From positions 3,377,501-3,441,500 of the forward strand of contig NZ_CP150661.1 in NCBI RefSeq assembly GCF_038024105.1: a stretch of 64,000 bases of DNA, written 5' to 3'. The position numbers and the translations under genes are program-made. Of this stretch, positions 34,446 through 55,545 are shown piece by piece. This DNA comes from Polaribacter butkevichii. GTDB lineage: Bacteria > Bacteroidota > Bacteroidia > Flavobacteriales > Flavobacteriaceae. How positions within the stretch are numbered: the stretch's first letter is position 1; every line of letters starts with the position of its first letter. A model generated the notes under the pieces. That model was not told the origin of the DNA, searched no databases, and saw nothing but the letters and a program-made list of their open reading frames with translations.

Positions 34446-34496
34446 CTCGAGTGCAGTTAAGAGATTGTATTAAGGTCTCAATTACGCTCAATCTAA
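34446..34496. repeat. decayed copy of the TCGAGCGCAGTCGAGA hairpin repeat
   Basis: Left arm CTCGAGTGCAGTTAAGAG, spacer ATTGTATTAAG, right arm TCTCAATTACGCTCAATCT. It aligns along its length with the intact copy at 53437-53489 but both arms carry substitutions and no longer pair well. It lies between the beta-helix lipoprotein and the glutaminyl cyclase genes, without an ORF. Confidence 0.6.
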
Positions 34497-52157: not shown

Positions 52158-53420
52158 ATGAAATATCAAAATAATTTAGAATTTGCCAAACAGCAAGATA
52201 AAGAAGATCCACTTGCTCCTTTAAGAAATCAATTTCACATTCCTAAAGATAAAAACGGAAACGATTGGTTGTATTTTACAGGAAACTCTTTAGGATTACA
52301 ACCCAAAGCTACCAAAGAATATATCAATCAAGAGTTAGAAGATTGGGCAAATTTAGGAGTAGAAGGTCATTTTGAAGCAAAAAATCCATGGTTAAATTAC
52401 CATGAATTATTAACTGATAAGATGGCAAAAGTAGTGGGCGCAAAACCTGTTGAGGTTGTTGTAATGAATACATTAACAACCAACCTTCATTTGCTAATGG
52501 TTTCATTTTACAGACCTACCAAAACAAAATATAAAATTATAATAGAATCGGATGCTTTTCCTTCGGATAGATATGCAGTACAATCTCAATTAAAATTTCA
52601 TGGTTTTGATGATGAAACCGATTTAATAGAATGGAAACCAAGAGAAGGAGAAACCTTATTAAACATAGAAGATTTAGAAACCATTTTAGAGTTTGAAGGA
52701 GATGAAGTTGCGTTGCTTTTAATTGGTGGCGTAAATTATTATACAGGTCAGTTTTTAGATTTAGAGCGAATCGCTCAGATGGGGCATGCTAAAGACTGCA
52801 TAGTAGGTATAGATTTAGCACATGGAGCGGGAAATATTCAGCCAAATTTACACGATTCTGGAGTAGATTTTGCAGCTTGGTGTACCTACAAATATTTAAA
52901 TGCAGGACCAGGAAGTTTAGCAGGATTGTTTGTACATGAAAAACATGCCAAGAATAAAAAATTACCGCGTTTTGCAGGTTGGTGGAATCATAACAAAGAA
53001 ACACGTTTTAATATGCGAAAACCTTTTGATGTGATGGAAGGGGCAGAAGGTTGGCAGTTATCTAACCCACCAATATTATCTATGGCAGCAATTTTAGCGT
53101 CACTAGATATTTTTGATAAAGTGGGTATGGACGCTTTGCGTCAGAAATCAGAAAAACTTACAGGTTATTTCGAGTTTTTAATTAATGAAATTGGCTCTGA
53201 TGATATAAAAATTATTACCCCTTCAAACCCAAAAGAAAGAGGTTGTCAATTATCTATTCAAGTTAAAAAGGCCGATAAAAGTTTGCATAAAAAACTAACA
53301 GAAAACCATATTATTACAGATTGGCGAGAGCCAGACGTTATCCGTTGTGCACCAACTCCTTTATATAATACTTTTGAAGATGTGTACAGAATGGTTTCAA
53401 TTTTAAAAGGATTGTTATAA
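52158..53420 (+). CDS. kynU: kynureninase
   Basis: 420 residues, PLP-dependent. It hydrolyses kynurenine or 3-hydroxykynurenine to (3-hydroxy)anthranilate and alanine. Substrate-binding NDWLYFTGNSLGLQP near 35-50, IGIDLAHGAGN near 222, PLP Lys in AAWCTYKYLNAGPG near 248, and WREPDVIRCAPTPLYNT near 390. First gene of the kynurenine cluster. The ATG at 52158 fits the family N-terminus. Confidence 0.94.
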   Translation: MKYQNNLEFAKQQDKEDPLAPLRNQFHIPKDKNGNDWLYFTGNSLGLQPKATKEYINQELEDWANLGVEGHFEAKNPWLNYHELLTDKMAKVVGAKPVEVVVMNTLTTNLHLLMVSFYRPTKTKYKIIIESDAFPSDRYAVQSQLKFHGFDDETDLIEWKPREGETLLNIEDLETILEFEGDEVALLLIGGVNYYTGQFLDLERIAQMGHAKDCIVGIDLAHGAGNIQPNLHDSGVDFAAWCTYKYLNAGPGSLAGLFVHEKHAKNKKLPRFAGWWNHNKETRFNMRKPFDVMEGAEGWQLSNPPILSMAAILASLDIFDKVGMDALRQKSEKLTGYFEFLINEIGSDDIKIITPSNPKERGCQLSIQVKKADKSLHKKLTENHIITDWREPDVIRCAPTPLYNTFEDVYRMVSILKGLL

Positions 53421-53489
53421 TAATTAAAAATGTCTTCTCGAGCGCAGTCGAGAGATTATTATTAGTTCTCGACTGCGCTCGAACTGACA
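53421..53489. repeat. solo TCGAGCGCAGTCGAGA hairpin repeat (kynU-kmo spacer)
   Basis: Perfect 16-bp arms TCGAGCGCAGTCGAGA (53438-53453) and complement (53467-53482), 13-nt loop. The right arm is followed by ACTGACA and ends 9 bp before the kmo ATG. It is the ORF-less version of the element around the GIY-YIG gene. On RNA it would form a strong stem inside the kyn transcript. Confidence 0.88.
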
Positions 53490-53498
53490 ATTGAAAAA

Positions 53499-54908
53499 AT
53501 GAACAGAAAAGATAAAATAGTAATCATCGGAGCAGGTTTATGTGGTTCTTTACTAGCATTAAGACTTGCCCAAAGAGGATTTAAAGTTGAGGTTTATGAA
53601 AGTAGACCAGATTTAAGAACCGTAGATATTTCTGCAGGCAGATCTATCAATTTAGCTTTGTCAGATAGAGGTTTTAAAGCGTTGCGTTTGTGTGGAGTAG
53701 AAGAGCAAGCAAGAGAAATTTGCATACCCATGTACGGACGTTTAATGCATGACAGAGCAGGAAATACGTTTGCGTCTAATTATTCGGGAAGAGAAAATGA
53801 ATACATCAATTCTATTTCTCGTGGCGATTTAAATGCACTGTTATTAACAGAAGCAGAAAAGCATACAAACGTTACTATTCATTTTAATAAAAAATGTAAA
53901 AATGTCGATTTAGAAAACAACATAGCACATTTTAAAGATTATAAAACCAAAGAAGAATTTAAGGTAAATGCAACTGTTATTTTCGGAGCAGATGGCGCAG
54001 GTTCTTCACTTAGAAAAAGCTATTATTTAGAACGTAAATTCTTATTTAGTTATTCTCAAAACTACTTAAATCACGGGTATAAAGAGTTAGAAATTCCTGC
54101 GGATAAAAGCGGAAATCATCAAATAAGTAACCAGCATTTACATATTTGGCCTCGTGGCGATTTTATGTTAATTGCCTTACCAAATTTAGACGGTAGTTTT
54201 ACCGTTACACTCTTTTTAAGTTATAATGAAGGCGAGTTTAATTTCGCAAACTTAACATCCGAAGAAAAAATAACGGCCTTTTTCGAAAAAGAATTTCCAG
54301 ATGCTTTGGCAATCATTCCAAATATAAAAGAGGAATTTTTAAATAACCCAACTGGTGCTTTAGGAACCATAAAATGTTCGCCTTGGAGTTATCAAAACAA
54401 AACGGTGTTAATGGGCGATGCAGCACACGCAATTGTGCCTTTTTACGGACAAGGAATGAACGCTTCTTTTGAAGATGTTACCGTGTTTGATGCTGTTTTA
54501 AATGAAAATTTAGAAGATTGGGAAGCTGTTTTTAAAGCCTATCAAAAAGCAAGAAAACAAGACACAGATGCTATTGCAGATCTAGCAATCGATAATTTTC
54601 ATGAAATGAGAGATCATGTGGCAAATCCTATTTTTAAAGAAAAAAGAAAGATAGAAATGGATTTAGAAAAGACGTTTCCAACCAAATATTTTTCTAAATA
54701 TTCTTTGGTTACCTTCAATGAAAATATAGGTTATGACAACGCCATGAAAAAGGGGAGAGCACAAGACAAAGCCTTGTTAAATTTAATTGCGGGCAATGAA
54801 GTACACACGCATTTAAACATGACAAAAAACGAGTTGAAAGTCATTTTACAGAAAGTAATTATAGAAACAAATGCCATTTTAGAGGAAGATAAAATTGCAG
54901 GGTTGTAA
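53499..54908 (+). CDS. kmo: kynurenine 3-monooxygenase
   Basis: 469-residue flavoprotein that hydroxylates L-kynurenine with NADPH and oxygen. FAD motif IIGAGLCGSLLALRLAQRG at residues 9-27, DISAGRSINLALSDRG (substrate region, about 44-59), GADGAGSSLRKS near 162, and GDAAHAIVPFYGQGMNASFED near 305-325. The family's C-terminal membrane-binding helix is weak here, so it may be soluble. Second step of the cluster, downstream of the hairpin repeat. Confidence 0.94.
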   Translation: MNRKDKIVIIGAGLCGSLLALRLAQRGFKVEVYESRPDLRTVDISAGRSINLALSDRGFKALRLCGVEEQAREICIPMYGRLMHDRAGNTFASNYSGRENEYINSISRGDLNALLLTEAEKHTNVTIHFNKKCKNVDLENNIAHFKDYKTKEEFKVNATVIFGADGAGSSLRKSYYLERKFLFSYSQNYLNHGYKELEIPADKSGNHQISNQHLHIWPRGDFMLIALPNLDGSFTVTLFLSYNEGEFNFANLTSEEKITAFFEKEFPDALAIIPNIKEEFLNNPTGALGTIKCSPWSYQNKTVLMGDAAHAIVPFYGQGMNASFEDVTVFDAVLNENLEDWEAVFKAYQKARKQDTDAIADLAIDNFHEMRDHVANPIFKEKRKIEMDLEKTFPTKYFSKYSLVTFNENIGYDNAMKKGRAQDKALLNLIAGNEVHTHLNMTKNELKVILQKVIIETNAILEEDKIAGL

Positions 54909-54916
54909 TTTTTTTT

Positions 54917-54997
54917 GAAGCTATTTCCTGCTTTACGCACTCGCTTTTTTGTGAAAAACAAAAAGAGCTCAAACAAATGCTTCAATCAGGGCTAAAC
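54917..54997. repeat. GAAGCTATTTCCTGC palindromic repeat, copy 2
   Basis: Starts GAAGCTATTTCCTGCTTTAC, ends CAATCAGGGCTAAAC. It starts 8 bp after the kmo stop codon. Confidence 0.75.
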
Positions 54998-55056: not shown

Positions 55057-55182
55057 ATTAAATCAGTTAAAAATGTCTCCTCGAGCATTGCTGAAATCAA
55101 AATATATTTTTGATTGAAAGTAGCGAACTTAGTTCTCTAGAGGATGAAAAGTATTAAATCAATTAAAAATGTCTCCTCGAGC
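55057..55182. repeat. tandem 30-bp direct repeat ahead of the GIY-YIG gene
   Basis: Two copies of a 30-bp unit (55057-55086 and 55153-55182; one mismatch), ending CTCCTCGAGC. The first is followed by a different stem (CCTCGAG ... CTCTAGAGG, about 55076-55143), the second by the canonical arm of the GIY-YIG element. Confidence 0.75.
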
Positions 55183-55192
55183 GCAGTCGAGA
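55177..55192. repeat. left arm of the GIY-YIG element
   Basis: TCGAGCGCAGTCGAGA, identical to the arm at 53438-53453. The nuclease ATG follows 8 bp later. Confidence 0.9.
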
Positions 55193-55199
55193 GGTAATT

Positions 55200-55520
55200 A
55201 TGAAAGCCTATTTTGTATACATATTAAAATGCTCGGATAATTTACTTTATGTAGGTGTCACAAATAATATTGAGCGACGTTTTAAAGAACATCAAAAAGG
55301 ATTGAACAAAGGTTGCTTTACATTTAAAAGAAGACCTTTAGAATTAATTTTTTATCAAGTTTTTAATGATGTTGAACAAGCTATTTATTTTGAAAAGAAA
55401 ATAAAAAAATGGAGTTCAAAGAAAAAGTTAGCTTTAGCAAATGATAATTTTGATATGTTACAAATTCTGTCTGAATGCAGAAATGCTACACATCATAAAT
55501 ATAAACCAGATAATAAATAG
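55200..55520 (+). CDS. GIY-YIG nuclease (UPF0213 type) nested in a hairpin repeat
   Basis: 106 residues. GIY-YIG core: YFVYILKCSDNLLYVGVTN with VYI...YVG, catalytic Arg in ERRFKEH, and Glu in QAIYFEKKIKKWSSKKK, as in small GIY-YIG domains of the UPF0213 type. A tail SECRNATHHKYKP follows the domain. There is no DNA-binding domain. The coding frame fills the space between two inverted 16-bp arms: start 8 bp after the left arm, stop TAG one base before the right. Family members cut DNA single or double strands; nicking at the flanking repeat is a natural hypothesis. Confidence 0.92.
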   Translation: MKAYFVYILKCSDNLLYVGVTNNIERRFKEHQKGLNKGCFTFKRRPLELIFYQVFNDVEQAIYFEKKIKKWSSKKKLALANDNFDMLQILSECRNATHHKYKPDNK

Positions 55521-55545
55521 TTCTCGACTGCGCTCGAACTGACAA
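55520..55545. repeat. right arm of the GIY-YIG element
   Basis: GTTCTCGACTGCGCTCGAAC then TGACAA. Identical to 53465-53490. Its first base is the last base of the nuclease stop codon; the next gene's ATG comes 7 bp later. Confidence 0.9.

Follow-up and report, generated by a model that had tools for sequence, protein, structure and literature searches.

The Polaribacter butkevichii genome contains a small GIY-YIG nuclease gene that fills the space between two inverted repeat arms, and the same arms also occur as pairs without a gene. REPs are widespread short bacterial repeats, and those with a GTAG tag have RAYT as their enzyme. The locus raises the question whether the nuclease acts on, and spreads, the palindrome around it, as RAYT transposases do with REPs, which an earlier note on this DNA had proposed. 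In the following, the window is the whole stretch of 64,000 nucleotides that was analyzed.

The nuclease element and its copies in the window

Exact copies of the 16-nt arm TCGAGCGCAGTCGAGA were found at 55177-55192 (plus strand) and 55522-55537 (minus strand), on both sides of the nuclease gene (55200..55520, plus strand, 106 aa), and the ATG at 55200 is the eighth base after the left arm. The flanking 16-bp arms and the start 8 bp past the left one, as described in the earlier note, were thus confirmed. Two of its details need correction at the level of the full, REP-like units. The left unit (55170..55195, plus strand) consists of a TGTC tag (55170-55173), an outer stem TCC/GGT and the core; the inverted right unit (55519..55544, minus strand) has an outer stem AGT/ACT, the core and the tag at 55541-55544 (GACA on the plus strand). 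The stop codon TAG (55518-55520) had been said to share its G with the right arm, but it stops 1 nt short of the 16-nt core; it does reach into the full unit, whose outer stem (AGT) occupies 55519-55521. The common sequence 3' of the right arms is present, but because the full right unit extends to its tag, this ACTGACA is outer stem plus tag and thus belongs to the unit; it is not an unrelated flank.

The solo inverted pair (53431..53489) with its 13-nt loop was recovered with exact arms at 53438-53453 (plus) and 53467-53482 (minus). It lies between two genes that we take, by resemblance, to be kynU-like and kmo-like (the latter at 53499..54908, plus strand); the two spacers of the kmo-like gene were used for the empty-site comparison below. 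The decayed copy reported near 34446-34496 was also found, as an inverted pair at 34447..34491 with 3 mismatches in the left arm (34447-34462) and, by eye, 4 in the right arm (about 34476-34491). Just 5' of the nuclease element lies a long-loop unit, either a variant or decayed (55074..55146, plus strand, read by eye, limits approximate), and by eye similar long-loop left arms also flank the nuclease in three other loci (L025, L040, L056). Altogether, five sites with at most 3 mismatches were present in the window versus 0.03 expected, and the 4.08-Mb genome contained 58 sites with at most 1 mismatch versus none for the reversed pattern, which excludes chance.

Between window positions 52900 and 56300 no Rfam family passed its gathering score. 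The sole match of the solo pair was to mir-3129 with 26.5 bits versus a gathering score of 90. A separate match to the Flavo-1 RNA (RF01705) in the downstream spacer of kmo (54920-54997, minus strand) scored 41.4 versus a gathering score of 42, and by eye a similar sequence sits at the equivalent place in the congener G005.

The enzyme

The window protein matched only GIY-YIG (E 2.1e-21) and T5orf172 in Pfam, and a Y1/HUH transposase domain was absent. The catalytic residues Y4, Y17, R27 and E65 were conserved at 90% or more in 29 sequences. The nearest solved relatives by sequence were the UPF0213 proteins 1zg2 and 1ywl, and the AlphaFold model (mean pLDDT 90.7) also had its best structural matches in UPF0213 (E 7.5e-6 and 1.5e-4). 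These proteins, alike in sequence and fold, were deposited as hypothetical proteins; at the 79-aa relatives L092 and L093 no palindromes were seen by eye. The next structural matches were Slx1-Slx4 entries, from E 0.003, and Slx1, a structure-selective nuclease for branched DNA, is the nearest functionally studied fold. Unlike Slx1, the window protein has just 106 aa, with no sign of the other domain of Slx1 or of Slx4. The gene is under purifying selection, with a median omega of 0.21 (276 pairs with 0.1<dS<1.5, 52 sequences). A role in anti-phage defence was also considered and rejected; PADLOC gave one match, and this was to a homing-endonuclease model.

Each arm is a tagged, bulged hairpin

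The alignment of the units used only the exact core and left the flanks out. The TGTC tag was present at positions -7 to -4 in 40 of 46 units of the own genome and in 180 of 195 units of the named relatives. In the latter, the two bases 5' of the core pair with the two bases 3' of it: Watson-Crick pairs were seen in 190 and 181 of 195 units, versus 57 and 74 expected under independence, and both positions showed all four pair types. The third outer position was unpaired (67 Watson-Crick pairs observed, 91 expected in the 195 units). The covariation score of the proposed structure, calculated with 104 of the 115 distinct units, was 0.362 versus 0.075 in shuffles; none of 500 shuffles scored as high, and each control with a slid structure stayed at or below 0.085. 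Two of the five covariation measures were not above the shuffles, namely double-change pairs (3 vs 3.0) and further pair types (11 vs 13.0). Tag, outer-stem pairing and covariation make each arm a hairpin of its own with a GA bulge, i.e., a REP-like unit by itself, which carries the RAYT/REP analogy of the earlier note further. In other lineages the stem seems, by eye, to be changed on both sides (TC/GA, CT/AG, CC/GG) with the bulge kept.

The predicted stability differed between units. A single TCGAGCG unit was weakly stable as single-stranded DNA (-3.0 kcal/mol, z -0.41; 59 of 200 shuffles were equally good), and for the L179-type unit (CT/AG) a hairpin other than the proposed one was predicted. 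The solo inverted pair was very stable (-22.3 kcal/mol, z -7.9), and the L010-type unit folded into a perfect 8-bp hairpin (-7.7 kcal/mol, z -5.6).

Solo units in the genome, empty sites and synteny

In 37 of 40 stretches around arm sites of the host genome, 22 inverted pairs were found by script, and the remainder were single arms. The spacing was 11-33 nt in 20 of the pairs, 329 nt in the nuclease copy and 344 nt in one further pair. The latter (L118, G000:C1:2836730-2838730) consists of inverted tagged arms with 3 and 1 mismatches at about the spacing of the nuclease element. Five single arms belong to a tandem array (L101, G000:C1:912700-915700) with steps of 195 bp, and every step contains one REP-like unit together with a repeat of the GTCATTGCGAGG type. 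Of 59 arm matches, 19 fall in stop-to-stop frames of more than 150 codons, several only at the frame edge; menD-, leuS- and trpF-like frames are among those with an internal match (named by resemblance, with a Pfam check for leuS alone). The leucyl-tRNA synthetase frame (L120, G000:C1:2990200-2992200) carries a DUF559 domain (residues 222-317), which is directly followed by a single TGTC REP-like unit. Solo units are scattered over many unrelated sites.

The two spacers of kmo could be compared between congeners. The kynU-kmo spacer is 0 bp long in G001 and G016, and in the host (G000) and G020 a solo pair occupies it. Between kmo and DUF1697 there are likewise 0 bp in G021 and G001, and G000, G020 and G094 have the nuclease element there. 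Orthologous spacers lacking the element, which the earlier note had suggested to look for, therefore exist on both sides of kmo. In two further genomes (G012, G018) a Y1 transposase lies downstream of kmo together with a palindrome of its own (GACCTCACAGG...CCTGTGAGGTC); both kinds of partner, GIY-YIG and Y1, occur within one genus. In the menD-like frame a single unit replaces target sequence with a net gain of 6 nt and the frame kept, compared with six of the 11 congeners found. A target-site duplication was not evident by eye in the kmo spacers.

The 79 named loci described in the next section fall into 29 two-sided synteny groups. The largest holds 25 of them, which indicates that the nuclease gene rarely moves. 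The gene appears to be mostly resident, and the repeats seem to be more mobile than the gene. PMC8266576 likewise states that evidence for mobility of the tnpA-REP gene is lacking.

Arms flank the relatives of the nuclease

Relatives were searched with the window protein, and the best 80 of 82 were kept, representing 79 distinct loci in named genomes. Arms were called with at most 2 mismatches in a 14-nt core and at most 250 bp from the gene, and 75 loci had at least 260 bp on each side. In these 75 loci an arm was present upstream in 64, downstream in 69, on both sides in 62 and on at least one side in 71. For 548 control positions in these loci, each 1 kb or more away, the numbers were 15, 8 and, for both sides, 0. 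Nuclease genes of this clade are thus usually flanked by the arms, as the earlier note implied. In 46/75 loci the nearest upstream arm was in forward and the nearest downstream arm in reverse orientation, and the median distances of these units from start and stop were 18.5 and 12 nt. Four of the 75 loci were armless. Two of them (L076, L090) have variant palindromes by eye, and in the other two (L092, L093; Parcubacteria and Kaiserbacteria, with 79-aa proteins) no palindromes were seen by eye.

A wider set comprised 263 GIY-YIG frames in 246 loci, including some pieces of broken genes, of which 251 remained after 7 duplicates and 5 frames with short flanks had been dropped. Self-complementary flanks (score at least 28) were found for 172/251 frames, compared with 26/1004 swapped flank pairs (partners below 45% protein identity) and 7/790 control positions; 79/251 frames were below the threshold. 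The 250-nt flanks of this test partly overlap the gene, because arms can overlap the stop. In another test with 150-nt flanks from the exact gene ends the numbers were 136/251 versus 105/1246 swapped pairs (partners of any type) and 5/639 control positions. A [CT]GTC tag was present in 139 of the 172 self-complementary flanks, 80.7 after shuffling; the difference is weaker than in the unit-level count, and local alignments can clip the tag.

Nuclease and palindrome occur together

In an order-level sample of 196 genomes (nuclease at E<=1e-15, exact arm), 41 had the nuclease, 25 the arm and 21 both. The nuclease was present in 21/25 arm-bearing versus 20/171 arm-free genomes (Fisher 2e-13), and the palindrome is thus more common with this nuclease clade than without it, in agreement with the earlier note. 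The family gave the same picture, with the nuclease in 18/21 arm-bearing versus 1/9 arm-free genomes (table 18/1/3/8; p 2e-4). Twelve of the 20 nuclease-only genomes were examined, and each had a variant palindrome on at least one side. Arms without the nuclease were found in G024 (4 arms), G041 (1), G180 (1) and G208 (3), and G024 has a broken nuclease relative at E 9e-13.

Within the genus, 17-108 arms were present in the four genomes with a close nuclease versus a median of 1 in the 21 others (p 0.001). Arms without a close nuclease reached 28 exact copies in G009, 11 in G005, 8 in G015 and 7 in G001, and in G013 the close nuclease contains an internal stop. Loss of the nuclease would leave such orphan arms behind, but they also set a limit to the claimed partnership.

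Each nuclease lineage has its own palindrome

The host genome contained seven GIY-YIG matches. Three intact short relatives, L010, L011 and L012, have palindromes of other types around them (TGTCATTCCTGCG..., TGTCATTACGAGG..., TGTCAGTTCGAGTG...); the L010-type pattern had 18 exact sites in the genome, nine of which fall inside a region of about 1.8 kb that surrounds the L010 gene. At L015 (G000:C1:611265-614393) a relic of a GIY-YIG gene is interrupted by GTCATTGCGAAG-type repeats.

For pairs of genes from different genomes, the fraction that shared a palindrome (score at least 28) rose with protein identity, from 2-3% below 40% identity to 10% (40-50%), 36% (50-60%), 80% (60-70%) and 98% (above 70%). 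The Mantel r was 0.64 (0/999 permutations). Pairs below 60% identity within the same genome shared a palindrome in 10 of 69 cases, two of which are pieces of one broken gene. A stricter test on triplets compared the median for genes of one type found elsewhere with the highest value for genes of other types from the same genome. Of these comparisons 29 were won, 1 was tied and 13 were lost; four of the lost ones came from fragments of two broken genes (L042, L090), which ought to have been excluded. The palindrome type follows the nuclease better than the host genome, and a given nuclease lineage comes with its own palindrome type when genomes are compared and, for the most part, inside single genomes too. 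Common descent of gene and flank accounts for part of the high-identity end, but not for the contrast within genomes.

The same layout in other phyla, and known REPs

A tblastn search with the L010 protein gave 33 plasmid-collection records, and 15 of these, from Proteobacteria, Cyanobacteria and Bacteroidota, were examined. Self-complementary flanks (score at least 28) were found in 12/15. In 11/15 the score exceeded those of all 20 control positions taken from the stretch itself; in S. meliloti one control did better. All 12 positive records had, by eye, a CGTC, TGTC or CCTC tag at the palindrome. They derive from Azospirillum lipoferum, Novosphingobium aromaticivorans, two Shinella, Sphingobium, Neorhizobium, Rhizobium CIAT894, Sinorhizobium meliloti, Neisseria gonorrhoeae, Aeromonas caviae, Planktothrix and Spirosoma. 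Flanks were not self-complementary in Rhizobium tumorigenes and Photobacterium, and Sinorhizobium C101 had one unit on one side only. The layout of a nuclease between palindromes thus recurs in other phyla. In A. lipoferum (L355) nuclease and palindromes lie between sufB and sufC, and in Planktothrix (L360) the neighbours of the nuclease are a type IIL restriction enzyme on one side and DISARM drmA on the other. The palindrome at the N. gonorrhoeae nuclease we take to be dRS3.

The tags lead to a known class of repeats. According to the available text of the 2013 survey by Di Nocera et al. (PMC3733652), REPs form two superfamilies, GTAG and CGTC, the CGTC tag is often TGTC or CCTC, and dRS3, RPE-6 and RPE-4 are CGTC elements; A. 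lipoferum, S. meliloti and N. aromaticivorans are also named. The CGTC REPs "apparently lack a dedicated transposase" and are described there as unassociated with transposase genes; the survey, as far as available, gives no associated enzyme. In its main text the terms GIY and COG2827 are absent, 'endonuclease' occurs once (for IS elements) and 'nuclease' once (in a reference). The units described here and the CGTC superfamily have in common the CGTC/TGTC/CCTC tag, the short hairpin, inverted dimers and copies inside genes. However, the TCGAGCG unit of the window has a GA bulge and a 6-nt loop, whereas the survey families have stems of 8-9 bp and loops of 4-5 nt in the text seen, and therefore the window type is not filed as a member of this superfamily. 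The L010 type (8-bp stem, 4-nt loop, tail CCA) and several units of the plasmid collection have the stem, loop and CCA-like tail of CGTC REPs, and by eye the L010-type and most plasmid-collection units match the description in the parts of the survey at hand. Among the titles and abstracts listed by full-text searches, with bioRxiv preprints outside and subscription papers thinly covered, none linked GIY-YIG nucleases to REPs. In Moraxella, RayT and a GIY-YIG endonuclease are listed as separate clade-specific genes, and no link is drawn in the available part of PMC9465073.

Discussion

We propose that the nuclease and its REP-like units are a replicator pair like RAYT and REP, with unrelated chemistry, and give this reading a probability of about 0.72. 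The partnership postulated in the earlier note is partly supported, by flanking and co-occurrence; it is limited by the 28 arms of G009 without a close nuclease and by a gene that is mostly resident. The nuclease would recognise its cognate tagged hairpin, extruded as single strand or cruciform, and would make a nick close to the tag, after which the hairpin would be copied to another place by the repair or replication machinery of the host. The gene would play the part of RAYT (TnpA-REP), with hydrolytic GIY-YIG instead of HUH/tyrosine chemistry, and with this chemistry host functions must do the joining. To our knowledge, neither strand transfer nor joining is known or expected for GIY-YIG enzymes. 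The fold offers no covalent intermediate, which makes a RAYT-like cycle of cutting and joining unlikely. Copying similar to gene conversion is more likely, and the replacement in the menD-like frame hints at copying.

The REPtrons, i.e., RAYT/TnpA-REP with GTAG REPs, resemble this pair in the accessible text of PMC8266576. TnpA-REP acts on single-stranded hairpins preceded by GTAG, and one group requires a bulge. In both systems a dedicated gene is flanked by cognate tagged hairpins that recur in the genome, the gene is resident, the repeats are dispersed, and both coevolve. The difference lies in the enzyme, which is GIY-YIG and not HUH/Y1, and for which a covalent tyrosine intermediate is not expected.

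The main rival is a domesticated hairpin nuclease that serves the host, for example by cutting replication-stalling hairpins, or regulates itself via the units without spreading them, so that the pairing would be protective or regulatory. The purifying selection, the single synteny group with 25 of the 79 loci, the units close to start and stop and, weakly, the Slx1-like fold would all fit. We nevertheless regard it as rather unlikely, because the units number in the tens, vary in count among congeners and are absent from orthologous spacers, and because a general hairpin nuclease does not need one repeat type per lineage.

Less probable still is that the gene is a passenger, which merely sits in repeat-rich spacers or was captured between repeats that spread otherwise. 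By eye, L011 and L012 are dense repeat arrays, and a joining activity is not expected of GIY-YIG enzymes. Arms on both sides of most relatives and at none of the control positions, differing palindromes at differing nuclease lineages inside one genome and the recurrence of the layout in Proteobacteria and Cyanobacteria argue against it.

Mobilisation of the units in trans, by a RAYT or some other transposase, is very improbable. Y1_Tnp matches were indeed present in 6/7 genomes searched, but TCGAGCG arms were found at the gene ends in none of the 15 inspected Y1 loci of the genus (18 matches; L345 was without gene limits), arm matches occurred only at L340 and L348, at least 1.3 kb from the gene start, and G020, which has more arms than any other genome (108 exact ones), had no Y1 match. 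The armless ends of 15 of the 18 Y1 matches and the absence of Y1 from G020 led us to discard this candidate. In addition, at least four of the Y1 genes have palindromes of their own, and PMC3733652, in the text available, finds the CGTC repeats unassociated with transposase genes. The palindromes of these four genes (L342, L347, L349, L350) are of the types GACCTCACAGG... and GCACGAGCGAGACGCTCGCGC... and offer a ready comparison system.

A group I intron or a GIY-YIG homing endonuclease with a fixed target, a similarly remote reading suggested by weak matches to homing-endonuclease models and by the nuclease in the same kmo spacer of three congeners, was rejected because the gene lies between genes, with none seen in an intron or intein, in 29 two-sided contexts among 79 loci, and solo units occupy many unrelated sites.

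We present the window nuclease as a candidate for the so far overlooked enzyme of CGTC/TGTC-tagged REPs, and the results suggest that nucleases of this kind are the partner enzymes that a widespread class of repeats has seemed to lack. A broader version, for which we see about even chances, is that small UPF0213-like GIY-YIG nucleases are dedicated mobilisers of CGTC/TGTC-tagged REPs across phyla, including dRS3 of Neisseria and the RPE type of Rickettsia, and thus a second, chemically independent class of REP replicators that would work by hairpin-directed hydrolytic cleavage and host repair. Taken together, the CGTC REPs, which were without an enzyme in the available text of the 2013 survey (PMC3733652), now have a testable candidate, a nuclease flanked by cognate tagged hairpins in several phyla. 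If the proposed pairing is true, REP-enzyme partnerships have at least two origins that are unrelated in chemistry, and a mechanism would become available for a large class of such repeats.
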